Part shown: piece by piece, positions 36,550 to 50,808 of the stretch
Position numbering within the stretch: position 1 is the first letter of the stretch
How the letters are laid out: every line of letters starts with the position of its first letter
From: Geodermatophilus obscurus
Lineage (GTDB): Bacteria > Actinomycetota > Actinomycetes > Mycobacteriales > Geodermatophilaceae
Length of the DNA stretch: 64,000 nucleotides
Direction: 5' to 3'
Assembly (NCBI RefSeq): GCF_900115395.1
Contig: NZ_FOWE01000005.1
Coordinates: 248,001-312,000 of the forward strand
Made by a program: the position numbers and the translations under genes
Notes under the pieces: generated by a model
Seen by the model: only the letters and a program-made list of their open reading frames with translations
Told to the model about the DNA's origin: nothing
The model's database searches: none

Positions 36550-38247
36550 ATGGGGCAGCGAGGCGGCCGGAGCAGGCTCGGCGATGCCGCGGCCGCGTTC
36601 GCGAGCAACACCCGGAACCGCGACCTGCGCCGCGCCCAGCTCAGCTTCCTCGGCGCGTGGACGGCCGAGTGGGCGTTCACCGTGGGACTCGGGATCGTGG
36701 CCTACCGGGACGGCGGGGCGACGGCCGTCGGACTGGTCGGTCTGCTCCGGATGGTGCCGTCCGCGGTCCTGACCCCGCTGCTGTCCCCGCTGGCCGACCG
36801 GGGACGACGGGAACGCGTCCTGGTCCTGGTGTCCACCGTCCGCGGTGTGGCCACCGCCGCGACGGCGGTCGTCGTCGGCGTGGCCGGCCCACCGCAGGTC
36901 GTATACGCGCTGGCCGTGGTGTCGACGGTCGCCGCCACCCTCTACCGGCCGGCGCACTCGGCACTGCTCCCGTCGCTGTGCCGCACCGGGTACGAGCTGG
37001 CCAGCGCGAACGTGGTGCGCGGCCTGCTGGACTCCGTCGCGACGCTGGCGGGTCCGCTGCTGGCCGCGGTGCTGCTCCGGTTCGTCGGCCTGACCGCGGT
37101 GTTCGCCGTCTCGGCGGGAGCCTCCTGCTGGGCCGCCGTCCTGCTGCTGCGGCTGCGGTACGACGCGCCGCCGCGACCGTCCGCCCCGGTGGAGGTCCAC
37201 CTGGTCGGTGAGGCGGCCGACGGCGTCCGCGCCGTCGTCCGCAACCGCGACCTGGCGCTCATCGTCGGCCTCGCCGCGGCGCAGACGTTCACCCGGGGGG
37301 CGCTGACCGTGCTCACCGTCGTGGTGGCGATCGACCTGCTGCGCACCGGCGAGCCCGGCGTCGGCACGCTCTCGGCCGCCATCGGGGCCGGTGCCGTCCT
37401 CGGCTCCCTCGCCGCCTCGCTGCTGGTCGGGACGCGCCGGCTCGGTGCCTGGTTCGCCGTCGGGGTGGCCCTGTTCGGCCTGCCGGTGACGCTCATCGGC
37501 GTCCTCCCGTACCAGGCCGCGGCGCTCGCCCTGCTGGCCTGCGTCGGCGTCGGCAACGCCCTGATCGACGTCGGGGGGTTCACGCTGCTGGCCAGGACGG
37601 CACCCGACGACGTGCTGGCGCGGGTCTTCGGCGTGCTGGAGTCCCTGGTCGCCCTGTCCACCGGGACGGGGGCCGTCGTCGCGGCGCTGGTGGTCGAGCA
37701 GGCCGGCGTGCGCACCGCGCTGCTGACGATGGGTCTGCTCGGTCCCGTCGCCGCGGCGGCCTCCTGGCACCGGCTACGGCAGCTGGACCGGTCCATCGGT
37801 GTCCGCGACCGGGACATCGACCTGCTGCGGGCCGTGGCCATGCTGGACCTGCTGCCCCTGCCGGCCATCGAGCAGCTGGCCCGCCGCATGGAGCCGGTCG
37901 CGGTGCCCGCGGGCGGCGTCGTCTTCGAGCAGGGCGACGTCGGCGACCGCTACTACGTGATCGAGTCGGGGAGCGTGGAGGTGGTCGGGGACGGGCGCGC
38001 CGTCGCGACCCTCGGTCCGGGGGAGGGGTTCGGGGAGATCGCGCTGCTCCGCAGCACCCGCCGGACGGCCACCGTCCGGGCCACCAGCGCCCTCCGGCTG
38101 CAGACGCTGCGCTCGGACCACTTCCTCCCGGTCGTCCTCGGCTACACGCCGAGCGCCCGGGAGGCGGGCACGGTCGTCGACACGATGCTCCACCGCTACG
38201 CGCCCCGGGACGCGCCCGAGCCGCCGGCCGGACGGCAGATCCCGTGA
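36550..38247 (+). CDS. MFS transporter fused to a cyclic-nucleotide-binding domain
   Basis: A 565-residue fusion. Residues about 25-415 form an MFS-type transporter (about 12 helices; LGAWTAEWAFTVGLG start, LSPLADRGRRERVLV between helices 2 and 3). Residues about 435-550 form a cNMP-binding domain with VVFEQGDVGDRYYVIESGSV and a phosphate-binding cassette FGEIALLRSTRRTATVRA (about 494-510) that keeps the Gly-Glu and Arg expected for ligand contact. The transporter is therefore likely gated or otherwise controlled by cAMP or cGMP; the cargo is unknown. TAGCGT sits 6 bases before the ATG. A cyclase-like DUF2652 gene follows 55 bases downstream. Confidence 0.85.
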   Translation: MGQRGGRSRLGDAAAAFASNTRNRDLRRAQLSFLGAWTAEWAFTVGLGIVAYRDGGATAVGLVGLLRMVPSAVLTPLLSPLADRGRRERVLVLVSTVRGVATAATAVVVGVAGPPQVVYALAVVSTVAATLYRPAHSALLPSLCRTGYELASANVVRGLLDSVATLAGPLLAAVLLRFVGLTAVFAVSAGASCWAAVLLLRLRYDAPPRPSAPVEVHLVGEAADGVRAVVRNRDLALIVGLAAAQTFTRGALTVLTVVVAIDLLRTGEPGVGTLSAAIGAGAVLGSLAASLLVGTRRLGAWFAVGVALFGLPVTLIGVLPYQAAALALLACVGVGNALIDVGGFTLLARTAPDDVLARVFGVLESLVALSTGTGAVVAALVVEQAGVRTALLTMGLLGPVAAAASWHRLRQLDRSIGVRDRDIDLLRAVAMLDLLPLPAIEQLARRMEPVAVPAGGVVFEQGDVGDRYYVIESGSVEVVGDGRAVATLGPGEGFGEIALLRSTRRTATVRATSALRLQTLRSDHFLPVVLGYTPSAREAGTVVDTMLHRYAPRDAPEPPAGRQIP

Positions 38248-38302
38248 CGACGCCCGGGGCCGGAGCGGGCACCGGCGGGGCCTGCGCCCGCTAGCGTGTC
38301 CC

Positions 38303-39019
38303 ATGGCGTCCGGACGTGCACTGCTCCTGATCGCCGACATCGGCGGCTACACCGACTACATGGGCTCGCACCGGATGAGCCTCGCGCACGCCGAGGTGAA
38401 CACCGGGCGGCTGCTGGAACAGGTGGTCGACGCCGCCCGCGGTTTCGACCTGGTCGAGATCGAGGGCGACGCGGCCTTCCTCGTCCGCCGCGCCGACACG
38501 CTCGGCGGCGGCGCCGCCCTCGCCGCCACCACGGACGCCGCCGTCGCGATGCACCGCGCGTTCCACCGCGAGCGGCACTACGTCGTGAGCAACCTGTGCC
38601 CGTGCAACGGCTGCACCGAGGCGAGCAACCTGACGCTGAAGTTCGTCGCCCACGTCGGCGAGGTCGCCACCCAGACCATCCGGCAGCGGCGCAAGCTCGT
38701 CGGGATCGACGTCATCCAGGTCCACCGGATGCTGAAGAACCCGGTGGACATCCCCGAGTACGTGCTCTTCTCCGACGAGCTCTACCGGGCCGGCGGGACC
38801 CCGCCGCCGGACCCCGCCCACGAGATCTCGCAGGACCTCGAGGGGATCGGCCCCGTCCGCGAGTGGTTCGTCGACGTCGCGGAGCTCGCGGGTCCCCTCC
38901 CGCCGCCGCCGGCGCCGTCCTGGCGTGGACGCCTCGGGCGGACGGTCGGTGTCGCCGGGGCCGGCATGCCCTACATGCTCGGCCTGCGGCGCCGGCGCCG
39001 TCCGGCTCCCGCGCTCTGA
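38303..39019 (+). CDS. DUF2652 protein, class III cyclase-like
   Basis: A 238-residue protein of the DUF2652 family, a divergent branch of the class III nucleotide cyclase superfamily. The two metal-binding Asp positions can be placed: Asp12 in LIADIGGYTDYM and Asp56 in EIEGDAAFLV, 44 apart as in known cyclases. A Cys motif (CPCNGC, 99-104) and GIDVIQVHRMLKNPVDIP follow; the last stretch lacks the Asn of the usual cyclase site. Activity is therefore unproven. The Pro-rich tail has a hydrophobic end (VAGAGMPYMLGL). TAGCGT lies 5 bases before the ATG. The upstream neighbour carries a cyclic-nucleotide-binding domain. Confidence 0.75.
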   Translation: MASGRALLLIADIGGYTDYMGSHRMSLAHAEVNTGRLLEQVVDAARGFDLVEIEGDAAFLVRRADTLGGGAALAATTDAAVAMHRAFHRERHYVVSNLCPCNGCTEASNLTLKFVAHVGEVATQTIRQRRKLVGIDVIQVHRMLKNPVDIPEYVLFSDELYRAGGTPPPDPAHEISQDLEGIGPVREWFVDVAELAGPLPPPPAPSWRGRLGRTVGVAGAGMPYMLGLRRRRRPAPAL

Positions 39020-39042
39020 CCCCGTCGGCGGCACCGACGGGG
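39020..39042. terminator. Hairpin terminator
   Basis: Perfect 9-bp stem (39020-39028 with 39034-39042), 5-base loop, directly after the stop of the DUF2652 gene and before the convergent DUF4191 gene. No U-run. Confidence 0.55.
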
Positions 39043-39085
39043 AGCCGCGCCGGCGGCCGGGCGGTGCTCCCGTCCGCGCAGGTCG

Positions 39086-40030
39086 TCAGCGGCGGCGGAC
39101 CTGCCGCTGGCTGACCGTCATCTGCTTGCCGCCGGGCAGCGGGCCACCGGGGACCGGCATCCGCGCCCCGCCGAGCGCCGCCATGCGCTTGCCGAGGGTG
39201 TTGACCTCCCCGGCCGACAGGTTCCGGGGCAGCTTCATCACGTGGGTGCTGAGCTTGCGCAGCGGGACCTGCCCCTCCTCGTCGCCCACCATGACGTCGT
39301 AGATCGGGGTGTCGCCGACGATGCGCGCGATCTTCTTCTTCTCCTGCGCCAGCAGGCTCCGCACCCGGGTGGGGGAGCCCTCGGCGACGAGGATGATCCC
39401 GGGCCGGCCGAGCACCCGGTGGACGGCGTCGAGCTGGGCGGTGCCGGCGACCCCGGCGCTGACCCGCCAGTCGCCCCGCATGCCCTCGAGCACCCACGCC
39501 GCCGCGCCGGGCTGGCCCTCCACCTGGCGGTAGGCCGAGCCCTGCGCGCGGCGGCCGAAGACGATCATGGCCGCCAGCACGCCGGTGATGACCGCCAGCG
39601 GCAGCAGGAGGAACGGCGCGCCGAAGAGGATGGCCAGCAGCTCGACGGCGCCGGCCACCACCACGAAGGCGATGAGCATCAGCCACGGCAGCTTGGGGTC
39701 GTTCTTGCGCGTCAGCGAGTAGGCCTGCTTGATCATGCGGGCCTGGTTGCCGAGCTTCTTCAGGCGGCCCACCTTCGGCTTGCCGTCCTTGCCGAGCTTC
39801 GGGGGCTTGGCCGGCTTGCCGGGCTTGGCGGCACCGCCCGCGGTCGCCCCGGAGGCGGTGGCACCGGAGGCGGTGGCACCGGAGGCGGTCGCACCGGAGG
39901 CGGTGGCACCGGATGCGGTCGCACCGGACGCGGTGGCACCGCCCGTGGTCCGGCTCCGTCCGGTCGTCCCGGGACCGCGCCCGGCCTTCCCGGTGGGCGC
40001 GGCGGGACCTGTGGGCTTGCTGCGTGCCAT
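39086..40030 (-). CDS. DUF4191 membrane protein with GATAS repeats
   Basis: A 314-residue protein matching M. tuberculosis Rv2219 in position (next to lipA). A low-complexity N-terminus holds seven GATAS/GATAG pentapeptides (about residues 29-63), then a Lys/Pro-rich stretch (GKPAKPPKLGKDGKPK), two membrane helices (PKLPWLMLIAFVVVAGAVEL; then LLPLAVITGVLAAMIVF) and a DUF4191 domain with GWVLEGMRGDWRV-like and RPGIILVAEGSPTRV. ATG 40030 gives MARSKPTG. Function unknown. The repeat is encoded by 15-bp units (39846-39950). lipA lies 51 bases upstream. Confidence 0.82.
   Translation of the reverse strand: MARSKPTGPAAPTGKAGRGPGTTGRSRTTGGATASGATASGATASGATASGATASGATASGATAGGAAKPGKPAKPPKLGKDGKPKVGRLKKLGNQARMIKQAYSLTRKNDPKLPWLMLIAFVVVAGAVELLAILFGAPFLLLPLAVITGVLAAMIVFGRRAQGSAYRQVEGQPGAAAWVLEGMRGDWRVSAGVAGTAQLDAVHRVLGRPGIILVAEGSPTRVRSLLAQEKKKIARIVGDTPIYDVMVGDEEGQVPLRKLSTHVMKLPRNLSAGEVNTLGKRMAALGGARMPVPGGPLPGGKQMTVSQRQVRRR
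39846..39950. repeat. 15-bp tandem coding repeat (GATAS)n
   Basis: Six close copies of a 15-base unit GCACCGGAGGCGGTG (39846-39935) plus a degenerate seventh to 39950, encoding GATAS on the minus strand. Copies 2, 3 and 4 differ by a single base, so this looks like recent expansion. Confidence 0.85.
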
Positions 40031-40081
40031 GTCCCCAGGATAGGGGCGCGGGAGCGCACTCCCGGTGGGCACGCGGGCCGA

Positions 40082-41068
40082 TCAGCCCCGAGGGGTCAGC
40101 CCGCGCGCCTCGACGGCCTGCTGGTAGAGCCGGCCGGCCCGGTAGGAACTGCGCACGAGCGGCCCGGCCAGCACCCCCGGGAAGCCGATCTCCTCGGCCT
40201 GCTGCTGGAAGCCGACGAACTCGTCGGGCTTGACCCAGCGGACCACGGGGTGGTGACGGGGTGAGGGGCGCAGGTACTGGGTGATGGTCAGCAGGTCGCA
40301 GCCGGCCTCGTGCAGGGCCCGCATGGTCTCCACGACCTCCTCCGGCTCCTCGCCCATGCCGAGGATGAGGTTGGACTTGGTGACCAGGCCGGCCTCGCGG
40401 GCGGCGGTGATGACCGCCAGCGACCGCTCGAAACGGAAGCCGGGCCGGATCCGCTTGAAGATGCGCGGCACCGTCTCGACGTTGTGCGCGAGCACCTCGG
40501 GCCGGGAGGAGAAGACCTCGGCGAGCTGGGCGGGGTCGGCGTTGAAGTCGGGGATGAGCAGCTCGACGCCGCAGCCGGGGACGGCGGCGTGGATCCGGCG
40601 GACGGTCTCGGCGTAGAGCCAGGCTCCGCCGTCGGGCAGGTCGTCGCGGGCGACGCCGGTCACCGTGGCGTAGCGCAGCTGCATCGTGGCGACGCTCTCG
40701 GCGACCCGACGCGGCTCGTCGGCGTCGAAGTCGGCCGGCTTGCCGGTGTCGATCTGGCAGAAGTCGCAGCGCCGGGTGCACTGGTCACCGCCGATGAGGA
40801 AGGTCGCCTCCCGGTCCTCCCAGCACTCGTAGATGTTGGGGCAGCCGGCCTCCTCGCACACCGTGTGCAGGCCCTCGCGGCGGACCAGCGACCGCAGCTG
40901 GGTGAACTCCGGGCCCGTCTTGAGCCGCGTCTTGATCCACTCCGGCTTGCGCTCGATCGGCACCTGGCTGTTGCGCACCTCCAGGCGGAGCAGCTTGCGG
41001 CCGGCCGGCTCGATCACGGCGGGGGAGGACGCGGCAGGAGAGGGAGTGGGGACCGCCGTCTCGCTCAT
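40082..41068 (-). CDS. lipA: Lipoyl synthase
   Basis: LipA (328 residues), a radical SAM enzyme that inserts two sulfur atoms into the octanoyl group on lipoyl domains. The auxiliary cluster is bound by [12 protein letters not shown] (Cys-4-Cys-5-Cys) and the SAM cluster by CTRRCDFC (Cys-3-Cys-2-Cys). The C-terminal Ser ligand is in LVRSSYRAG. Length is normal. ATG 41068 (MSETAVPTP) is preferred; a GTG at 41077 is possible. Unlike in mycobacteria, lipB is not adjacent but lies 7 kb away at 48152, with leuS and two other genes between. Confidence 0.96.
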
Positions 41069-41093
41069 GACCTGCACGGTACCCCTGGACGCA

Positions 41094-41131
41094 CGCCGCC
41101 CCCGCGGCCTCGGGAGGCGGCGGGGGCGGCG
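41094..41131 (-). terminator. Hairpin terminator
   Basis: Perfect 12-bp stem (41094-41105 with 41120-41131) and a 14-base loop, 20 bases past the stop of the Ala-rich membrane protein and upstream of lipA. No U-run. Confidence 0.55.
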
Positions 41132-41151
41132 GGGAACGGGTCGCGGACGGC

Positions 41152-42264
41152 TCAGGCCTGGCCGGCCGCCGGGCCCGCGGTCGGGCCCTCGGTGGAGCCG
41201 CCACCACCGCTGGTGAACGGCTCGGGAGCGGTCTGCGTGGGGTCGGTGGCGCCGGCGTCGTCGTCACCGGCCACGTTCTGGGCGTCACGGATGCCCATGT
41301 CGGACTCGGCGGGCGCCGAGTCGCCGGACACGAACATGGCGTCGGAGACGGTCTTGCCGGACTGGTCGCTGCTCGGGGAGCTGGGCACGGGGTCCTCTCG
41401 GTAGCTCGGGACGGGCCCGTCGCCGGTGGGGGCCGGCGTCCACGGGTCCTCCTTCCGGCGGCGCAGGAAGGCGAAGGTGGCCGCACCGACGGCGAGGGCG
41501 ACGAGCACCCACGGCCAGCGGCGTGACGAGGTGTCCGTACCCACCTGCCGCCGGACCTTCGCAAGGGTCTTCGAAGACTTCCGCTTCGTCTTCCGCTTCC
41601 CCGTGCCGACGCTCGTCACCGTGCCGCCGACCAGCTCGGCGCGGCGCGCCTCCAGCTCGCCGAGGGCGGTGCCGACGCCGGCGACCAGGCTGTCGCGGGC
41701 GGAGCCGAGCGCCGGCCCGACGGTGTCGCGGGCGGCCGCCACGCGCGGTGCGACCTCGGTGGCCAGCGCGTGGCGGGTCGCCTCCTGCGCGGCCTCGAGG
41801 TGGGGGGCGAGGTCGGTGGCGGCCTTCACCGCGGCGGCGCCGACGGCGGCGAGCGCCGAGGTGACCGCGGGACCGGCGGACTCGCGGGCCGCCACCACGC
41901 GGGGGGTGAGGACCTCGACGGCGGCGTCGACCCTCTCGCGGGCCAGCTCCAGCGCCGGCGTGGTGGCGCCGCGGGCGGCCTCCACGCGCGGGGCCAGCGC
42001 CTCGCGGGCGGAGGCCACCACGGGCGCGGTGGCCGCGACGGCCGCGGCCAACCGCGGGGCGACGGCGACGCGGGCGGCGTCGAGGACCGGCCCGGCCACC
42101 TCGCGCGCGGCGTCGACGCGGGGTGCCAGCTGCTCCACGGCGGCGAGGCGGGCCTCGGTGACCGCGGCGCCGAGGTGGGCCAGGCCCTCCTGGAGCTCGG
42201 CCCCGATCACCTGGCCGCGGGACTCGGGTCCGAGGGCCGGCACACGGGACTGGGAGCGGAACAC
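41152..42264 (-). CDS. Alanine-rich repeat membrane protein
   Basis: A 370-residue protein, no known family recognised. Residues about 20-210 consist of imperfect helical repeats with the theme APRVxAAREAxGPA (such as [15 protein letters not shown] and [15 protein letters not shown]), Ala-rich and amphipathic, like a long coiled or apolipoprotein-type rod. A basic Lys/Arg stretch ([11 protein letters not shown]) precedes one membrane helix ([19 protein letters not shown], about 255-275) followed by RRRKEDPW and an acidic/Gly-rich tail. This is probably a cytoplasmic or periplasmic rod anchored to the membrane. GTG 42264 follows a GGAGGTG. Confidence 0.65.
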
Positions 42265-42348
42265 GGGATCGCACCTCCGGGTAGATCGACTCCGGCCATC
42301 CTGCCCGCTCCGCCGGGACAGCACACCCCCGGACCCCGCCCGGGACCG

Positions 42349-44664
42349 TCAGACGGTGGGCACGAGCGGCAGCCGCTCCGCGGCCAGCCAGCGCAGCAGG
42401 TCCCCGACCGGCATCGGCCGGGCCACGGCGTAGCCCTGCGCGACGTCGCAGCCCAGCTCGGCCAGGCGCCGGGCGGTGACGACGTCCTCGACGCCCTCGG
42501 CGACCAGGCTCAGGCCGAGGTCGTGGGCGAGGGCCACGGTGTGCCGCACGATCGCGGCGGCCCGCTCGTCGTCGGCGACGTCGCAGGTGAGGCTGCGGTC
42601 GAGCTTGAGCTCGTCGGCGGGCAGCCGGCGCAGGTAGGCCAGCGAGCTGTACCCGGTGCCGTAGTCGTCGATCGAGGTGCGCACGCCCAGGCGCCGCAGC
42701 TCCCCGAGCACCGTGCGGCCGCGCTCGGGGTCGGCCATGAGGGTGTCCTCGACCAGCTCGAGGGTCAGCGCCGCCGCGGGCAGGCCCCGGCGGGCCAGCT
42801 TCTCGGCGACCTTGCGCGGCAGGTCGAGGTCGGCGACGTTGGCCGCCGACAGGTTCACCGACACCGGCACGCCGTGGTCGTCCCACCACCGCGCCACCGC
42901 GTCCAGCGAGCGCTCCAGGACGGTGTCGGTGAGCGGGCGCAGCAGCCCGGCCTGCTCGGCGGCGGGCAGCACCTGCGCGGGGCCGACCAGCCCGCGGACC
43001 GGGTGGTGCCAGCGCAGCAGGGCCTCGACGCCGACCACCCGGCCGTCGTCCATGGCGACCTGCGGCTGCAGGTGCACGTCGAGCTCGTCGCGGACGAGGG
43101 CGGTGCGCAGCTCCTCCATCGTCCGCAGCCGCTCGCCCGAGCCGCTCGAGGGGTCGGGGACGTACACGTGCACGCCGGTGCGCTCGGTCTTGGCCGCGTA
43201 CATCGCGACGTCGGCGCAGCGCAGCAGCTCCTGCACGTCGTCGGCAGGCACCGGCGCCGTCGAGACGCCGATGCTCACCCCCACGTGCAGCCGGATGCCG
43301 TCGACGGCGAACGGCTGGCGCAGCAGGTCGTGCACGACGCCGGCGCGCTCGGCGGCGGTGTCGAGGTCGGCGGCGGGCAGCAGGACGGCGAACTCGTCAC
43401 CGCCGAGGCGGGCCAGGACCTCGCCGGGGCGCAGCGCCGGGGCCAGGCGCGGGCCGACCTGGCGCAGCAGCTCGTCGCCGGCGCCGTGACCGAGGCTGTC
43501 GTTGACCTCCTTGAAGCCGTCGAGGTCGAGCAGGAGCAGGGCCGCGGGGCGAGCGGTGGTGGCCGCGGCGACGACGCTGCGGGCGGTCTCGAGCAGGGCG
43601 CGGCGGTTGGGCAGCTCGGTCAGCTCGTCGGTGCGCGCCTCCTGGCGGACGGTCGCGAACGAGCTGACCTCGCGGAAGGTGACCGCCGTGCGGGCCAGCG
43701 CGGCGAGCACGCAGCCGACGGCGAGCCAGCCGGCGGTGCTCGGCAGCTGGTCGCCGTAGCCGGCGGCGAGCACGGCCAGGGCGGCGAGCGTGCCGGCCAG
43801 CGGCAGGGCGACCAGGCGCCAGGTGATGCGGACCCCGCCGTCGTCCTCGCGCGGCCGCGGGTCGCCGGTGGTCCGCTGCGCGGCGACCGCGGCGCACAGC
43901 ACGCCGGCCAGCCACAGCAGCTCGAGCGGGCCGCCGTCGGTGTAGCGGTCGGCGACGCTGAGGGCGAACAGGGCGGCGTCGGCGACGCAGAAGAGGGCCA
44001 CCGCCCCGCCGGCCAGCACCAGCGTGCGGTCCAGGTGGACGCCGAGGATGGCGCCCACGCCGGCCAGCAGCGCCAGCAGCAGCACGTCGGCCGCGGGCCA
44101 GGCGACCTGCATGACCGAGACCTGGCCGTCGCCGGTCAGGTAGGGGCCGAGCAGGAAGCCGGCGCCGACCGCGGACGCGCCGAGGGCGCCGACGACGCCG
44201 TCGAGCCACATGCTCGGCAGGAAGCGGGTCACGCGGGCGCGGATGAGGACGAACAGCGCGACGTAGAGGCTGCCGTAGGCGACCGCCACGCAGGCGTCGG
44301 CGACCGGCGACGGCGTGGTGCCGGCCTGGCCGGTCTCCACGATCCGGGCCACGTTGCCGACGGCGCCGACGAGCAGCGACGTCGCCATCGCCCGCCACGC
44401 CACCGCCTCGCGCGGCGCGGTGCGGGCGGTCAGCCAGCAGGCGGCACCCGCGGCCACCCACGGCACGTGGTAGACGACCAGGTCGTAGAACAGGTCCCAC
44501 GCCCGTCCGCCCGGCCGCGGGCCGGTGCCCGTGGCGAACACGGCCACGCCGAGCACCGCGACGACGAGGAGGAGGTCGCGCGGACGGGTCGGCAGGCGAG
44601 GACGGGGGGACACCGCTTCTGGGCGCACGGGTACTGCATCGGCGGCTCCCGCTCGGGTGTGCAC
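42349..44664 (-). CDS. Membrane GGDEF-EAL protein
   Basis: A 771-residue protein. Eight or so membrane helices (about 25-310) precede a GGDEF domain (LTELPNRRALLETARS, DLDGFKEVNDSLGHGAGDE, LARLGGDEFAVLLP, intact signature) and an EAL domain. EAL residues include VEALLRWHHPV, LTLELVEDTLM, SIDDYGTGYSSL and ELKLDRSL, all as in active phosphodiesterases. It could make or break cyclic di-GMP or switch between both. GTG 44664 is taken as start, with later GTGs possible. It is divergent from the leuS leader. Confidence 0.85.
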   Translation of the reverse strand: MHTRAGAADAVPVRPEAVSPRPRLPTRPRDLLLVVAVLGVAVFATGTGPRPGGRAWDLFYDLVVYHVPWVAAGAACWLTARTAPREAVAWRAMATSLLVGAVGNVARIVETGQAGTTPSPVADACVAVAYGSLYVALFVLIRARVTRFLPSMWLDGVVGALGASAVGAGFLLGPYLTGDGQVSVMQVAWPAADVLLLALLAGVGAILGVHLDRTLVLAGGAVALFCVADAALFALSVADRYTDGGPLELLWLAGVLCAAVAAQRTTGDPRPREDDGGVRITWRLVALPLAGTLAALAVLAAGYGDQLPSTAGWLAVGCVLAALARTAVTFREVSSFATVRQEARTDELTELPNRRALLETARSVVAAATTARPAALLLLDLDGFKEVNDSLGHGAGDELLRQVGPRLAPALRPGEVLARLGGDEFAVLLPAADLDTAAERAGVVHDLLRQPFAVDGIRLHVGVSIGVSTAPVPADDVQELLRCADVAMYAAKTERTGVHVYVPDPSSGSGERLRTMEELRTALVRDELDVHLQPQVAMDDGRVVGVEALLRWHHPVRGLVGPAQVLPAAEQAGLLRPLTDTVLERSLDAVARWWDDHGVPVSVNLSAANVADLDLPRKVAEKLARRGLPAAALTLELVEDTLMADPERGRTVLGELRRLGVRTSIDDYGTGYSSLAYLRRLPADELKLDRSLTCDVADDERAAAIVRHTVALAHDLGLSLVAEGVEDVVTARRLAELGCDVAQGYAVARPMPVGDLLRWLAAERLPLVPTV

Positions 44665-44710
44665 CCGGACGGCCCGGGTCGACCCCTCCGGGTGAGACGG
44701 CGCCGCGCGC

Positions 44711-44716
44711 TAGGCT
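44711..44716 (+). promoter_or_regulatory. -10 element of the leuS leader
   Basis: TAGGCT, ending 6 bases before the GTG of a short leader reading frame at 44723. The same TANNNT-to-start spacing recurs at many genes in the window, so transcription probably begins at or near 44723 and the leader is leaderless. Confidence 0.55.
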
Positions 44717-44722
44717 GGGCGG

Positions 44723-44758
44723 GTGAGCGGCGGACGCCTCCTTCTCCGGCCGTGCTGA
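44723..44758 (+). CDS. leuS leader peptide with three Leu codons
   Basis: An 11-codon frame, GTG 44723 to TGA 44756-44758, encoding VSGGRLLLRPC. Codons 6-8 are CTC CTT CTC, three adjacent leucines; CTT is a rare codon in such GC-rich genes. Its stop lies inside the left arm of a 10-bp hairpin that precedes an intrinsic terminator in front of leuS. This layout is the classic leader-peptide attenuator. No SD is present, as expected for a leaderless start. Confidence 0.6.
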   Translation: MSGGRLLLRPC

Positions 44759-44778
44759 CCTGATCCGCGTCAGCACGG
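44750..44778 (+). promoter_or_regulatory. Leader hairpin upstream of the leuS terminator
   Basis: Perfect 10-bp stem, 44750-44759 with 44769-44778, loop of 9 bases. The left arm contains the leader peptide stop. An alternative pairing of GACGC (44733-44737) with GCGTC (44767-44771) would compete with it. It ends 2 bases before the terminator stem. Confidence 0.6.
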
Positions 44779-44780
44779 CG

Positions 44781-44806
44781 ACCCCTCCTGCGTGAGGGGT
44801 TTTTTC
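44781..44806 (+). terminator. Intrinsic terminator (attenuator) upstream of leuS
   Basis: ACCCCTC (44781-44787) pairs with GAGGGGT (44794-44800) and is followed by a run of six T (44800-44805), the only classic U-tailed terminator I see in the window. It stands 36 bases before the leuS start and would stop transcription before the gene unless read through. Confidence 0.85.
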
Positions 44807-44841
44807 ATGTCCGCCGACGGATGACCCCCGGGAGCACCGCG

Positions 44842-47733
44842 ATGAGCCAGACGGCGAGCCAGCCCACCACCGAGCCCGCGGACGAGGGCGTCCCGCCGCA
44901 CCGCTACACGCCCGCGCTGGCGCAGCGGATCGAGCTGGCGTGGCAGGACCGGTGGGAGGCCGAGGGCACCTTCCACACGCCCAACCCGACCGGGCGGCTG
45001 TCGGCGGGCTTCGAGCGGGTCGCCGGGCGGCCCAAGTCCTTCGTGATGGACATGTTCCCGTACCCCTCGGGCGCCGGCCTGCACGTCGGCCACCCGCTGG
45101 GCTACCTGGGCACCGACGTCACCAGCCGGTTCCGTCGCATGGACGGCGACAACGTGCTCCACCCCATGGGCTACGACGCCTTCGGACTGCCCGCCGAGCA
45201 GTACGCCGTCCAGACAGGGCAGCACCCGCGGGTCACCACCGAGGCCAACATCGCCGCCATCCGCGCGCAGCTGCGGCGCCTCGGCGTCGACCACGACGAG
45301 CGGCGCACCTTCGCCACGATCGACCCCGGCTACTACCGGTGGACGCAGTGGATCTTCCTGAGGATCTTCGGCGCCTGGTTCGACGAGGAGGCCGGCCGGG
45401 CCCGCCCGGTCGAGGAGCTGGTCGCCGAGCTCGACGCCGGCACCCGTGAGCCCGCGCCCGGCACCAACCCGTCGGGGCTGCCGTGGGCCGGGCTGTCCGA
45501 CGTCGCCAAGCGGCAGGTCGTCGACGCGCACCGGCTGGCCTACCGGCACGAGGCGCCGGTCAACTGGTGCCCGGGGCTGGGCACGGTGCTCTCCAACGAG
45601 GAGGTCACGCCCGACGGCCGCTCCGAGCGTGGCAACTTCCCGGTGTTCCGACGCCCGCTCAACCAGTGGATGATGCGGATCACCGCCTACGCCGAGCGGC
45701 TGCTGGCCGACCTCGACCGCCTGGACTGGTCGGACTCGGTCAAGCAGATGCAGCGCAACTGGATCGGCCGCTCGACCGGTGCGCGCATCCGCTTCGCCGC
45801 CGCGGACCGGACGATCGAGGTCTTCACCACCCGGCCCGACACGCTGTTCGGCGCCACGTACGTGGTGCTGGCTCCGGAGCACCCGCTGGTCGAGGCGCTC
45901 ACCGCCGACGCCTGGCCCGACGGCACCGACCCGCGCTGGACCGGGGGCGCCGCGACGCCCGCCGAGGCGGTGCAGGAGTACCAGCGGCAGGCGTCCCGCC
46001 GCTCGGAGCTCGACCGCCAGGACGCCGGCCGGGAGAAGACCGGCGCGTGGCTGGGCGCCACCGCCGTCAACCCGGTGAACGGCCGCGAGCTGCCGGTGTT
46101 CATCGCCGACTACGTGCTGACCGGCTACGGCACCGGCGCGATCATGGCCGTGCCCGGTGAGGACACCCGCGACTGGGAGTTCGCCGAGGCCTTCGGGCTG
46201 CCGGTGGTCCGCACCGTGCAGCCGCCCGCCGACTGGGACGGCGGCGCGTACACCGGCAGCGGGCCGATGACCAACTCGTCGAACGAGCACGTGTCGCTGG
46301 ACGGGCTGACCGACAAGGACACCGCCATCGCGCGGATGACGGAGTGGCTGGCGTCGGCCGGGCACGGCGAGGCGACGACCACCTACAAGCTGCGCGACTG
46401 GCTGTTCAGCCGGCAGCGCTACTGGGGCGAGCCGTTCCCGATCGTCTACGACGCCGACGGCCTGCCCCGCGCGGTGCCCGAGTCGCTGCTGCCGGTGCTG
46501 CTGCCGGAGGTCGACGACTACTCGCCGAAGACCTTCGCCGACGACGACGCCGACTCCCAGCCCGAGCCGCCGCTGTCCCGGGTCACCGAGTGGACGACGG
46601 TCGAGCTCGACCTGGGTGACGGGCTCAAGCCCTACCGCCGCGAGACGAACACGATGCCCAACTGGGCGGGGTCGTGCTGGTACCACCTGCGCTATCTCGA
46701 CCCCGGCGACGACACCCAGCTGGTCGACCCCGAGCTGGAGCGCTACTGGCTGGGTCCGCAGTCGCCCGGCGACACCGGCGGCGTGGACCTCTACGTCGGC
46801 GGCATGGAGCACGCGGTGCTGCACCTGCTGTACGCGCGGTTCTGGCACAAGGTCCTGCACGACCTGGGCCACGTGTCCAGCGAGGAGCCGTTCCGCCGGC
46901 TGGTCAACCAGGGCTACATCTCCGCCTACGCCTACACCGACGAGCGCGGCTTCTACGTGCCCGCCGCCGAGGTCGTCGAGCAGGACGGGCAGTTCCTGTA
47001 CGAGGGCAGGCCGGTCAACCGTGAGTACGGCAAGATCGGCAAGAGCCTGAAGAACATGGTCACGCCCGACGAGATGATCGGCGCGTACGGGGCGGACACG
47101 TTCCGGGTGTACGAGATGTCGACCGGTCCGCTGGAGCAGTCGCGGCCCTGGGACACCAAGGCCGTCGTCGGGTCGCAGCGGCTGCTGCAGCGGATCTGGC
47201 GGGTCGTCGTCGACGAGGAGACCGGTGCCGTCCGCGCCGACGACTCCGCGCCGTCCGACGAGGTGCAGCGCGCGCTGCACCGCGCGATCGCCGGGGTGCG
47301 CGACGGCATGGCGACCCTGCGGTTCAACGTGGCCATCGCCCGGATCGCGGAGCTGACCAACGCGCTGACGGCGGCCTACGGTGCCGACTCCCCGGTGCCG
47401 CGGGCGGTGGCCGAGCCGCTGGTGCTGCTGGTGGCGCCGCTGGCCCCGCACCTGGCCGAGGAGCTGTGGGCGCGCCTGGGCCACGACGACTCGGTGGCGT
47501 GGGCGCCGTTCCCGGTCGCCGACGAGCAGTGGCTGGCCGAGGACACCGTGCAGGTCGCCGTCCAGGTCAACGGGAAGGTGCGCGCGCAGGTGACCGTGCC
47601 GGCCGACGCCGACGCCGCGGGCCTCGAGCAGGCGGCGCGGGCGGACGAGAAGGTCGCCGCGCAGCTGGCCGGGAAGACGGTGCGGCGCGTGATCGCCGTC
47701 CCCGGCCGGCTGGTCAACTTCGTCGTCGGCTGA
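44842..47733 (+). CDS. leuS: Leucyl-tRNA synthetase
   Basis: LeuRS, about 963 residues, charges tRNA-Leu. The ATP site is [17 protein letters not shown] (HIGH variant HVGH), the CP1 editing region follows ([11 protein letters not shown]), and the second motif is KIGKSLKNM (KMSKS variant). Length and order are normal. The start at ATG 44842 (MSQTASQPT) has GGGAG at 7-base spacing; ATG 44821 would lack an SD, but it overlaps a mini-frame (44807-44824) and is possible. The gene sits behind a leucine leader peptide and U-tailed terminator. It is convergent with the PPOX gene and lies among lipoate genes, a placement not known to me elsewhere. Confidence 0.96.
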
Positions 47734-47764
47734 CCGGCAGCCGCCCCGCCCGGGCCGTCGCGGT

Positions 47765-48148
47765 TCAGGCGGGGCGGATGCGGATGAGCTCGTGCCGCTC
47801 GGTCCCGGGCCTCCTCAGCCGGGTCCACAGCCGTGGGGTGACGTACCCGGCCTGGAACCGCCAGCCGTAGGCACGCCGGAGCGCGGCCAGGGCCCGCGGC
47901 CACTCCGCCCGGTCGACGAACCCGGCCTGCGCCTCGACGGCGGGGCTCCCGGGCCGTCCGCGGACGTCGCACGGCGCGACGGTCACCTGCGCGGTGTGCC
48001 GCAGCCGCTTCACCTTGCCCGAGTCGGCGCGGGTCCAGACGACCAGCGAGTCGAGGTCGGGTGCGGCCCACACCGGCGTCGCCACGGGGACGCCGGTGCG
48101 GCGGAACGTGGTCAGGCTGACGTAGGTCGAGCGCGGCAGGTCGGCCAC
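47765..48148 (-). CDS. PPOX-class flavin/F420-type enzyme
   Basis: A 127-residue split-barrel protein of the pyridoxamine phosphate oxidase class (F420-dependent group in actinobacteria). The pattern is STYVSLTTFRRTGVPVATPV, WTRADSGKVKRLRHTAQVTV and APCDVRGRP, followed by FVDRAEWPRALAALRRAYGW. The likely cofactor is FMN or F420. The ATG at 48148 lies 3 bases after the lipB stop, so it is translated downstream of lipB. Confidence 0.8.
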   Translation of the reverse strand: MADLPRSTYVSLTTFRRTGVPVATPVWAAPDLDSLVVWTRADSGKVKRLRHTAQVTVAPCDVRGRPGSPAVEAQAGFVDRAEWPRALAALRRAYGWRFQAGYVTPRLWTRLRRPGTERHELIRIRPA

Positions 48149-48151
48149 GGG

Positions 48152-48811
48152 TCAGACGGCGGTGGCGAGGGTGAGCACCCGCCGCACCGCCGCCTCCACC
48201 GCGTCGATCACCTCGGCCACGGGGACGTCCCGGCCGAGCTCGGCGGTCAGCGACGTGACGCCGGCGTCGGCGATGCCGCACGGGACGATCGCGCCGAACG
48301 CGGCCAGGTCGGGGTCGCAGTTGAGGGCGAAGCCGTGCATCGTCACGCCGCGGGCGACCCGCACACCGATCGCGGCGATCTTCCGCTCCGGCCGGAACCG
48401 GCTGCCGGGACCCGGCGCGTCCGCCGCCAGCCAGACCCCGCTGCGCCCGTCGACGCGCTGGGTGTCGACGCCGAGGTCCGCGCAGACCTGCATCAGCGCG
48501 TCCTCGAGGCGCCGCACGTGCGCGACGACGTCGACCGGGTCGGGGAGGGCCACGATCGGGTAGCCGACGAGCTGGCCGGGCCCGTGCCAGGTGATCTTGC
48601 CGCCCCGGTCGACGTCGACGACCGGCGTGCCGTCGACCGGGCGCTCGTGCGGCTCGGTCCGGCGTCCGGCCGTGTACACCGACGGGTGCTCGAGCAGCAG
48701 CAGCGTGTCCGGGCCCTCCCCGGCCACCCGCGCGGCGTGGAGCTCGCGCTGGCGCGCCCACGCCTCCTCGTAGGGGACGGTGCCGGCCCGGACCACCTGC
48801 AGCTCAGTCAC
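48152..48811 (-). CDS. lipB: Lipoyl(octanoyl) transferase
   Basis: LipB (219 residues) moves octanoate from acyl carrier protein to lipoyl domains, the step before LipA. Signature [17 protein letters not shown], the lysine in [11 protein letters not shown] and the active Cys in [13 protein letters not shown] are all present. GTG 48811 has TAGGCT 6 bases upstream on the same strand, so a leaderless mRNA is likely. The PPOX gene follows 3 bases after the stop. In mycobacteria lipB and lipA are neighbours; here they are separated. Confidence 0.95.
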
Positions 48812-48832
48812 GGACCCAGCCTAGGCCCGTCG

Positions 48833-49567
48833 TCATCGCAGCCGGCGCGGCTCGAGACGGGTCTCCACGGCGGTGCCATCGGGTCCGCGCTCGACGCGGT
48901 ACGCGGCCGCGCCCGGCCGGTCGGCGACGACTTGGGCCAGCTCGGTGCCGCGGTAGACCAGCCCCGCGCCGTCGTCGGTGGCGTGCCCGGGCGGCAGCGT
49001 CCCGTCGGCGACCAGCCGGTGGTACAGCGGGCGGCGCTGCTCCTCGGAGTCGTGGTGGACGCCGTTGGAGGTCGGGATGAGAGCGAGGCCGTCCGTGACC
49101 GGTCGCAGGTCGGGGCCGTAGGAGTCGGTGGTGCCGCCGACGTGCCAGCACAGCGACCCGGCCGACACCCCGCCGAGCACGACCCCCGCCTCCCACGCCT
49201 CCCGGAACACCTCGTCGAGGCCGTGCACCCGCCAGACCGCCAGCAGGTTGGCGACGCTGCCGCCGCCGACCCAGACGACGTCCTGCGCGAGCAGGTGCGC
49301 GCGCACGTCGGGCACCGTGGGCATCGGGAACAGGCTGAGGTGACTGACCCGGACCGCGCTGCCGGCGAAGGCGCCGTACACCCCGGCGACACGCGCCGGG
49401 TCGTCGCCGGTGGCGGTGCCCAGGAAGCACAGGCGTGGCTGCTCCGGTGCCCCGGCCAGCTCGACGGCGAGGTCGAACACCGGTCCGGGCGCCCAGTCGG
49501 ACGGGCCGCGGCCGCGGGAGTCGAACCCGATGCTCGTGGCGAGGATCGTCGGGGCGGAGGCCGGCAT
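48833..49567 (-). CDS. pepE: Peptidase E (S51 family)
   Basis: A 244-residue serine peptidase of the PepE/cyanophycinase fold. The nucleophile elbow is GGVSAGSLCW (Ser in GxSxG) and the preceding VVWVGGGSVANLLAVW loop is characteristic. A His in SNGVHHDSEE is the expected base. PepE removes N-terminal aspartate from dipeptides. It may therefore recycle peptides. The ATG at 49567 overlaps the stop of the FAD oxidoreductase gene (TGATG), so the two are coupled. Confidence 0.85.
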   Translation of the reverse strand: MPASAPTILATSIGFDSRGRGPSDWAPGPVFDLAVELAGAPEQPRLCFLGTATGDDPARVAGVYGAFAGSAVRVSHLSLFPMPTVPDVRAHLLAQDVVWVGGGSVANLLAVWRVHGLDEVFREAWEAGVVLGGVSAGSLCWHVGGTTDSYGPDLRPVTDGLALIPTSNGVHHDSEEQRRPLYHRLVADGTLPPGHATDDGAGLVYRGTELAQVVADRPGAAAYRVERGPDGTAVETRLEPRRLR

Positions 49568-50808
49568 CAGGCTGCCCCGGCGGCCGGTCGCAGCGCGCGC
49601 AGGACGGCCGCGGCGGCCCGCCGGCCGCTGGCCATGGCGCCCTGGATGGACGGGGTGTCCCGGTGGTCCCCGCAGACGTAGAGGCCGCCGCCGAGGTCGA
49701 CCGGACGACGGTGCCGCAGCGGGGGGAGGGCGGCCGGCTGGGCCCCGGTCACCGTCACGGTGGTGAGGTGCTCGAGGTCGGCCGCGGCGACGTCGTGCAG
49801 CCGCGCGACCTCGTCGCGGACGTCGGCCTCGCGGGTGGGTACGAGGGAGTTGCTGGCGACCAGGGCCCGCCCGTCGGGGGAGTAGCCCGGCTGGGCGTCG
49901 CTGAGCACCACGCTGTTGACCAGCCGTCCTCCGGGGGTGCCGAGGACGATCAGCGGCTCGGTCCAGGGGGAGGCCGGGAGCACGTGGTAGTGGGTGGTCA
50001 CCTGCCGGGGCGCGGCGGCCTCGACGGCCGGGAGCAGGCCGGCGGCGGTGCCGGGGTCGGTGGCCACCACGACGGCGTCGGCGTGGACCGGTCCGGCGTC
50101 GCTGCTGACCTGGCTGCCGGTGACCGCGCCGACCCGGACACCGGTGTGCACCCGCCCGGCGCCCACGCCGGCGGCCAGTTGCTCCCCGATCGCCTGGATC
50201 CCCTGCGCCGGCAGTCCGGTCGCCCCCCGGGCGAAGCTGCGCCAGAGCAGGTCGAGGTAGCGGCTCGAGGTCTCCAGCCGGTCCTCGAGCAGGACCCCGG
50301 CCAGGAAGGGGGCGAAGAACCGTTCGAGCGCCGTCTCGCCCACGCCGGCCCGCCGCAGGTGCTCGGCCGCCGTCGTCTCCGGCGCGGCGAGCAGCCGGGG
50401 GACGGGCCAGTAACCCGCGCGGGCGGAGAAGGCGGCGACGGCGACCTTCTCGGTCAGTGAGCCGATGGGCGCGCGCAGCGTGTCGGGGAGTGCGGTGGGC
50501 CGGCGCCGCGGGTCGGCCACCCGGTGCGCCCGCCCGTCGACCCGGACCACGGCGCCGGGGGTGAAGTAGCCGAGCTCGAGCGCGGGCAGGTCGAGGTCGG
50601 CCGCCCGGGGATAGCCGGTGTTGAGGACCTGGAAGCCGCGGTCGACGACGAAACCGTCGACCCGGTCGGTCTCCAGCCGCCCGCCGACGTGCCCCGAGGC
50701 CTCCAGCACGTGCACGTCACAGCCGGCGGCGGCCAGGCGGGTGGCGACCGAGAGACCCGCCAGGCCAGCCCCGACCACGACGACCTCGGCGCGGGCAGGC
50801 GGTGGCAT
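49567..50808 (-). CDS. FAD-dependent amine oxidase/protoporphyrinogen oxidase-like protein
   Basis: A 413-residue flavoprotein. The N-terminal dinucleotide motif is VVVVGAGLAGLSVATRLAAA followed by HVLEASGHVGGRLET, as in NAD(P)-binding/FAD amine oxidase-type proteins. A C-terminal GLYVCGDHRDTPSIQGAM completes the FAD site. Related proteins include phytoene desaturase-like and monoamine oxidase-like enzymes; the substrate is unknown. ATG 50808 has TAGGTT 6 bases upstream (leaderless). It is divergent from the kinase gene across 119 bases. Confidence 0.8.
   Translation of the reverse strand: MPPPARAEVVVVGAGLAGLSVATRLAAAGCDVHVLEASGHVGGRLETDRVDGFVVDRGFQVLNTGYPRAADLDLPALELGYFTPGAVVRVDGRAHRVADPRRRPTALPDTLRAPIGSLTEKVAVAAFSARAGYWPVPRLLAAPETTAAEHLRRAGVGETALERFFAPFLAGVLLEDRLETSSRYLDLLWRSFARGATGLPAQGIQAIGEQLAAGVGAGRVHTGVRVGAVTGSQVSSDAGPVHADAVVVATDPGTAAGLLPAVEAAAPRQVTTHYHVLPASPWTEPLIVLGTPGGRLVNSVVLSDAQPGYSPDGRALVASNSLVPTREADVRDEVARLHDVAAADLEHLTTVTVTGAQPAALPPLRHRRPVDLGGGLYVCGDHRDTPSIQGAMASGRRAAAAVLRALRPAAGAA

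Follow-up and report, generated by a model that had tools for sequence, protein, structure and literature searches.

Attenuators of the Escherichia coli trp and leu type combine a leader peptide carrying control codons with a terminator ahead of the structural gene, and they have a defined antiterminator and leaders with a ribosome binding site. For leuS itself, attenuators were predicted in 2005 in Streptomyces avermitilis and Streptomyces coelicolor by Seliverstov et al. (PMC1262725), where a figure legend names antiterminators for two Streptomyces leuS leaders. According to the text of the same paper, substituting codons in the ilvB leader of S. coelicolor had been reported to be without effect; it also describes the LEU element of leuA, a conserved pseudoknot in which the Leu codons are proposed to pair with the ribosome binding site, and places T-boxes ahead of actinobacterial ileS genes. 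In 2021, an RNA-seq study of Streptomyces lividans TK24 listed LeuL2, a leaderless leuS leader peptide (MRAVRLLLSEPR) followed by a hairpin and a U stretch (PMC8079986). The first-pass annotation of the locus considered here had thought leader-peptide control of an aminoacyl-tRNA synthetase gene notable in this group, a view that these two reports, one a prediction (PMC1262725) and the other an annotation (PMC8079986), had already overtaken.

The locus lies in a stretch of 64,000 nucleotides of Geodermatophilus obscurus DNA (the window), with the leader and leuS on its forward strand. Its structural gene is leuS (44842..47733), a leucyl-tRNA synthetase scoring 876.8 bits against TIGR00396 (cut-off 548.4), whose start was placed by comparison: ATG 44842 is favoured over the in-frame ATG 44821, with a probable ribosome binding site, GGGAG (44830..44834, by eye), seven bases ahead of 44842, an MSQT start of LeuS that is common to the genus by eye, and an equivalent of ATG 44821 that is out of frame in locus L004. 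Upstream stands a putative -10 element, TAGGCT (44711..44716), read from the sequence and conserved as TANNNT in relatives, and six bases after it begins the predicted leaderless frame VSGGRLLLRPC* (44723..44758; GTG AGC GGC GGA CGC CTC CTT CTC CGG CCG TGC TGA, with GTG at 44723), which is likewise conserved in relatives. The stop codon TGA (44756-44758) falls within the left arm of a hairpin, stem 1, whose arms GCCGTGCTGAC (44749..44759) and GTCAGCACGGC (44769..44779) are recovered both by folding and by covariation. One base 3' of stem 1 comes a 7-bp terminator hairpin, ACCCCTC-CTGCGT-GAGGGGT (44781..44800), identified by terminator scan, fold and covariation, with a tract of six T (44800..44805) seen in the sequence and by the scan. 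The 5' neighbour of the leader is a GGDEF/EAL gene on the opposite strand, and the terminator therefore cannot belong to that gene.

Most of what the first-pass annotation had read from the letters held when we returned to them: the -10 box, the leaderless frame with CTC CTT CTC and the U-tailed terminator 36 bases ahead of leuS are all where it had put them. Its perfect 10-bp stem does overlap the leader stop, the length being 11 bp, and its statement that this is the only classic U-tailed terminator in the window was nearly right, as loose scans return six distinct sites of which this one alone has six T. Terminator-like sites across 38000-50000 are not clearly more frequent than expected by chance (2 nested matches against 0.8, sd 0.9). 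For the leader RNA the folding energy is -40.7 kcal/mol (z = -2.9), which none of 200 shuffles equals, and a search pattern for the leader (CTNCTYNNNNNGCCGYGCTGA), written after the relatives had been seen, occurs once in the window and in none of 100 shuffles. A sigma-70 consensus scan found no sigma-70-type promoter at the leader.

Set beside the described systems, the Geodermatophilus leader is close to those of Streptomyces. With the 2005 leuS attenuators, compared here by text and legends, it shares a Leu-codon frame and a poly-U terminator directly before leuS, and it differs in the antiterminators named there (PMC1262725), which are unsupported as a conserved feature in our data. With S. 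lividans LeuL2 it shares a leaderless frame with LLL (in a 12-residue peptide, MRAVRLLLSEPR, in that species) and a hairpin with a U stretch before leuS, whereas the peptides differ outside LLL and the Geodermatophilus frame starts with GTG (PMC8079986). The GCCGYGCTGA arm and the CCCCTC/GAGGGG terminator are common to this leader and the Streptomyces leuS leader, matches to our covariance model (R1, below) being there partly by construction, and the loop of stem 1 is shorter in the Geodermatophilus window than in most fetched Streptomyces loci. Streptomyces IlvL (MRTRILVLGKRVG) has the same layout, with a run of branched-chain amino acid (BCAA) codons, a GC-rich stem about 5 nt past the last of them and a terminator directly after, but it carries Ile, Val and Leu codons, precedes ilvB and has another stem sequence. 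From the LEU element of leuA the leader is set apart by its gene and by its terminator, and from the E. coli trp/leu type by the antiterminator and leader ribosome binding site found in E. coli, the control-codon peptide and the terminator being common to both.

Conservation of the leader is complete in the genus and wide in the class. All 26 genus genomes have leuS, and in all 26 a leader with at least two consecutive Leu codons lies ahead of it; candidate leaders came from 124 of the 132 loci examined, and one or more of these (L053) must be counted as spurious. The covariance model R1, built from 27 leuS leader sequences that include Streptomyces rows, matched all 23 genus loci given to it and 83 of 90 fetched loci, with no match in the other seven (L049, L053, L054, L107, L110, L131 and L134). 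A further 80 loci gave 74 matches, made up of 60 of 60 that had been fetched as R1 matches and 14 of 20 from order genomes chosen by leuS position alone (L231-L250). Under strict filters (E <= 0.001), R1 matched 181 of 393 genomes of the class, representing 66 of 123 genera, and found no match in the remaining 212. In a draw from the phylum, 18 of 197 genomes matched, six of them outside the class; one of these six matches (L251) precedes leuS, and of the five others, three were read by eye as leuA-like or ilvB-like. Where position was checked, 37 of 40 R1 matches lay directly 5' of leuS on the same strand and three did not. For the leader counts that follow, four short opposite-strand matches were dropped (161 to 157), as were L171, L172 and L189, which are not before leuS; L225 and L176 were additionally left out of the counts of long-range pairing and of stem and TGYC features.

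Some observations on individual loci were made along the way. In four of the loci without an R1 match (L107, L110, L131 and L134), leuS itself seems by eye to start 6-7 nt past a TANNNT box and may thus be leaderless. Genus genome G015 has two leuS loci (L021 and L029) with identical upstream sequence on different contigs, which may be an assembly duplicate. Seven nucleotides past the terminator hairpin, the window has TGTC (44808..44811), its copy of a TGYC motif that stands at the same offset in 106 of 151 distinct leaders, in 34 of them in the form TGYCCGG; the motif is mostly absent in Streptomyces by eye, and the last columns of R1 overlap its first bases.

Both helices, stem 1 and the terminator, covary by alignment. 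In a MAFFT alignment of 27 rows, 93.4% of cells are paired, against 35-52% when the partners are slid by 1-3 columns, and 39 cells have changed on both sides, against 12 in shuffles. Two of the five measures are modest in this alignment, the double-change pairs (7 against 5.1, reached by 20 of 500 shuffles) and the pair types (17 against 14.8, reached by 41 of 500). At the inner end of stem 1, the last two pairs fail to form in 12 and 9 of the 27 rows. In 78 model-fitted rows, an alignment that leans to the model and contains four short opposite-strand rows and three not before leuS, 14 of 18 pairs have changed on both sides and none of 500 shuffles reached any measure. The outer half of stem 1 is nearly fixed, as GCCGCG in 87 of 151 leaders and GCCGTG in 52, while the inner half varies with compensation, the 22 listed stems without TGA keeping 9-11 of 11 pairs. 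The gap between stem 1 and the terminator is 1 nt in 124 of 151 leaders and 0-3 nt in all 151. Alignment of the region 5' of leuS, which had been proposed as a check of the attenuator, shows a conserved leader frame, conserved Leu codons and covarying helices.

The frame itself is organized around one codon. Counted over the 153 distinct leaders, positions -8 to -6 relative to stem 1 hold CTT in 132, CTC in 19, CTG in 1 and CCG in 1. In the background of leuS genes (first 2.8 kb; 73 of the 80 named loci, with 7 dropped), the 5388 Leu codons include 7 CTT and 4994 CTG, and the window's own leuS has no CTT among 78 Leu codons. In the window the run CTC CTT CTC occupies 44738..44746, with CTT at the conserved, putative sensing position (44741-44743), 5 nt ahead of stem 1, and a further Leu codon, CTC, directly after it. 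Since R1 was trained on 27 leaders with the 5-nt spacing, this spacing is in R1 matches partly by construction. In 147 of the 153 distinct leaders, 6-7 nt separate the TANNNT box from the start codon, in keeping with S. lividans, for which the transcript is reported as leaderless; leaderless status is assigned here from this -10 spacing, not from transcript mapping. In 126 of 153 leaders the frame first meets a TGA within the left arm, in 20 a TAG ending on the first base of the stem, and in 7 a stop elsewhere, so that 146 of 153 stop at one of two left-arm places. Stem 1 is retained with both types of stop, which argues that more than coding maintains its sequence. Loci noted for the two types include L081, L084, L184, L185, L200 and L207. 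The placement of CTT at a fixed 5 nt from the stem and the two stop positions are what the present comparison adds to the description of leuS leaders; in titles and the beginnings of abstracts, a survey from which subscription journals are mostly missing, we saw neither the fixed spacing, nor the CTT preference, nor a Geodermatophilus leuS leader.

These regularities bear directly on the simplest alternative, that the element is an unregulated promoter-proximal terminator which would make a short RNA and hold leuS at a constant low level, the Leu codons being incidental. Such a reading would be in keeping with our finding no conserved alternative structure and with the codon substitutions without effect in the S. 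coelicolor ilvB leader, as given in the text of Seliverstov et al. (PMC1262725). Against it stand conservation of the frame, the use of CTT by 132 of 153 leaders compared with 7 of 5388 background codons, the fixed 5-nt spacing and a stop at two places in 146 of 153, and we regard it as improbable. Still less probable is translational control after the manner of the leuA LEU element, with the Leu codons pairing with the leuS ribosome binding site. By eye CUCC can pair with GGAG, and the LEU element is described as such a pairing (PMC1262725), but a covarying intrinsic terminator lies between the Leu codons and the leuS ribosome binding site. A T-box, known in these bacteria ahead of ileS (PMC1262725), or another riboswitch can be practically dismissed: no Rfam family, the T-box model included, reaches its gathering score in the window, and the best weak match, to Chlorobi-1, has 20.7 of 50 bits and lies on the other strand, over both hairpins.

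Our preferred reading, at a probability of roughly 80%, is a transcription attenuator of the ribosome-mediated kind, through which the supply of charged leucyl-tRNA sets the expression of leuS, because a Leu-run leader is found in 26 of 26 genus genomes, R1 matches 181 of 393 genomes of the class and both helices covary. The tRNA that reads CTC and CTT is tRNA-Leu(GAG), and the genome has a gene for it, found once in a scan that covered 10 of its 47 tRNA genes. The tRNA sensed above all would be this isoacceptor, with anticodon GAG reading CUU and CUC. We infer the transcript start, translation of the leader, its dependence on leucine and the direction of the response as follows. Transcription would start at or beside the GTG, which would allow direct loading of a ribosome onto the leaderless frame. 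Given ample Leu-tRNA, this ribosome would pass the Leu codons to the stop within stem 1 and leave, and the terminator would end most transcripts; with Leu-tRNA scarce, it would wait at the Leu codons and more polymerases would enter leuS. The sensing half of this attenuator is well supported by comparison of the leaders, in which the frame, the choice of codon, the fixed spacing, stem 1, the terminator and the position before leuS are all evident.

We also weighed how a waiting ribosome might spare the transcript. The first-pass annotation had pointed to a weak alternative pairing (44733-44737 with 44767-44771), which exists in the window and is not conserved, being full in 1 of 23 genus leaders, with four of the five pairs in 8. 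In the classical four-segment form, the stalled ribosome would cover the left arm and the freed right arm (GCACGGC) would pair with the terminator loop region and block the terminator. Seliverstov et al. speak, in a legend, of antiterminators for two Streptomyces leuS leaders (PMC1262725). Among 115 distinct combinations of right arm and terminator, 41 give predicted hairpins of -7 kcal/mol or better, 53 give values from -7 to -4 and the other 21 fall short of -4, with a mean of -7.6 kcal/mol for CTGTGC loops (Streptomyces and others). A first duplex test (56 loops, 94 of 110 combinations) was weakly positive, with a mid-rank of 0.414 against 0.498 for the reversed-arm control. We give preference to a hairpin test, since the duplex test used only six arm bases, and in it the native loops pair with the right arm no better than permuted loops do: for 43 distinct loops of 5-8 nt the mid-rank is 0.501, against 0.502 for the reversed arm. 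In a no-arm control (0.680) the native loops fold less well than their permutations, so that they avoid self-pairing, which limits the hairpin test and shifts native and reversed arm alike; adding the arm benefits native loops slightly more than permuted ones, and to about the same extent when the arm is reversed. We did not find a conserved antiterminator among these loops, and in the window the short right-arm hairpin reaches only -4.4 kcal/mol, against -11.5 kcal/mol for the terminator. Loop permutation is blind to pairing on invariant bases, which leaves room for a clade-specific antiterminator as proposed for Streptomyces. On balance, the classical form is possible, though doubtful.

Two other pairings were considered and rejected. 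Pairing between the left arm and the terminator loop was null in the hairpin test (0.485). Pairing between the Leu-codon region and the 3' arm of the terminator, where a helix of at least 5 pairs is possible in 141 of 148 leaders, was set aside as a mechanism because it has the wrong sign, since a waiting ribosome would hide the codons, because it is G-U rich, and because CTT is retained even with a different 3' arm (L183, by eye).

Judged from ribosome structures, a ribosome with CTT in its A site would have the mRNA entry directly at the foot of stem 1. With this geometry nearly all of stem 1 would stay paired while the ribosome waits, and the classical logic is therefore not obvious. A more speculative reading, to which we give a low probability, is a class-wide attenuator without an antiterminator: the ribosome at the fixed CUU would abut stem 1, 5 nt away, and the packed row of ribosome, stem 1 and terminator would, through crowding or contact, prevent closure of the terminator at the polymerase. 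The 5-nt rule would in that case mark a whole set of BCAA leaders, those of leuS, ilvB and cimA.

The ilvB leaders bear on this rule. The ilvB upstream regions of 16 genomes were scanned for short BCAA-rich frames, with R1 unused, and such a frame was found in 14, seven of them from one genus and of the S. lividans IlvL peptide type; an earlier scan requiring a -10 box had found 2 of 16. The scan of 16 found no ilvB leader in the window's own genome (L312) or in L315. By our own reading, the stem core GCGC(G) begins exactly 5 nt past the last BCAA codon in 11 of the 14, whereas with a scripted stem start, in which extra A-U or G-U pairs are counted, the distance is 3-5 nt in these 11 and 6-8 nt in the other three (L307, L319 and L322), in which the 5-nt spacing is not kept. 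The run codons GTA, ATT and CTT make up 0.8%, 1.8% and 1.3% of their families in 16 ilvB genes. As a further test of spacing, 15 trpE loci were scanned for leaders and yielded nothing convincing. Separately, one R1 match (L171; G000:C21:74000-76600, match 75254-75338, minus strand) marks a second leader of this design in its genome, with the frame MVPIGTTLIIG* (by eye), a stem and a terminator. Its flanking genes are those for 3-isopropylmalate dehydrogenase and for citramalate synthase (TIGR00977, 479.8 bits).

Overall, the first-pass proposal of a leucine leader peptide and terminator before leuS stands, with conservation throughout the genus and across much of the class, and its weak antitermination pairing does not. 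Judged by its sequence and that of its relatives, the Geodermatophilus leuS leader is a real, conserved leucine-leader attenuator of an already known kind. It points to one strongly conserved leucine-control design for leucyl-tRNA synthetase across many actinobacterial families, in which an exact codon-to-stem distance and a rarest-codon sensor are combined, with no conserved antiterminator found in the leaders compared. With such a design, the puzzle of the S. coelicolor ilvB leader, where codon changes were reported without effect in the text of Seliverstov et al. (PMC1262725), becomes a testable question about the mechanism of these leaders.
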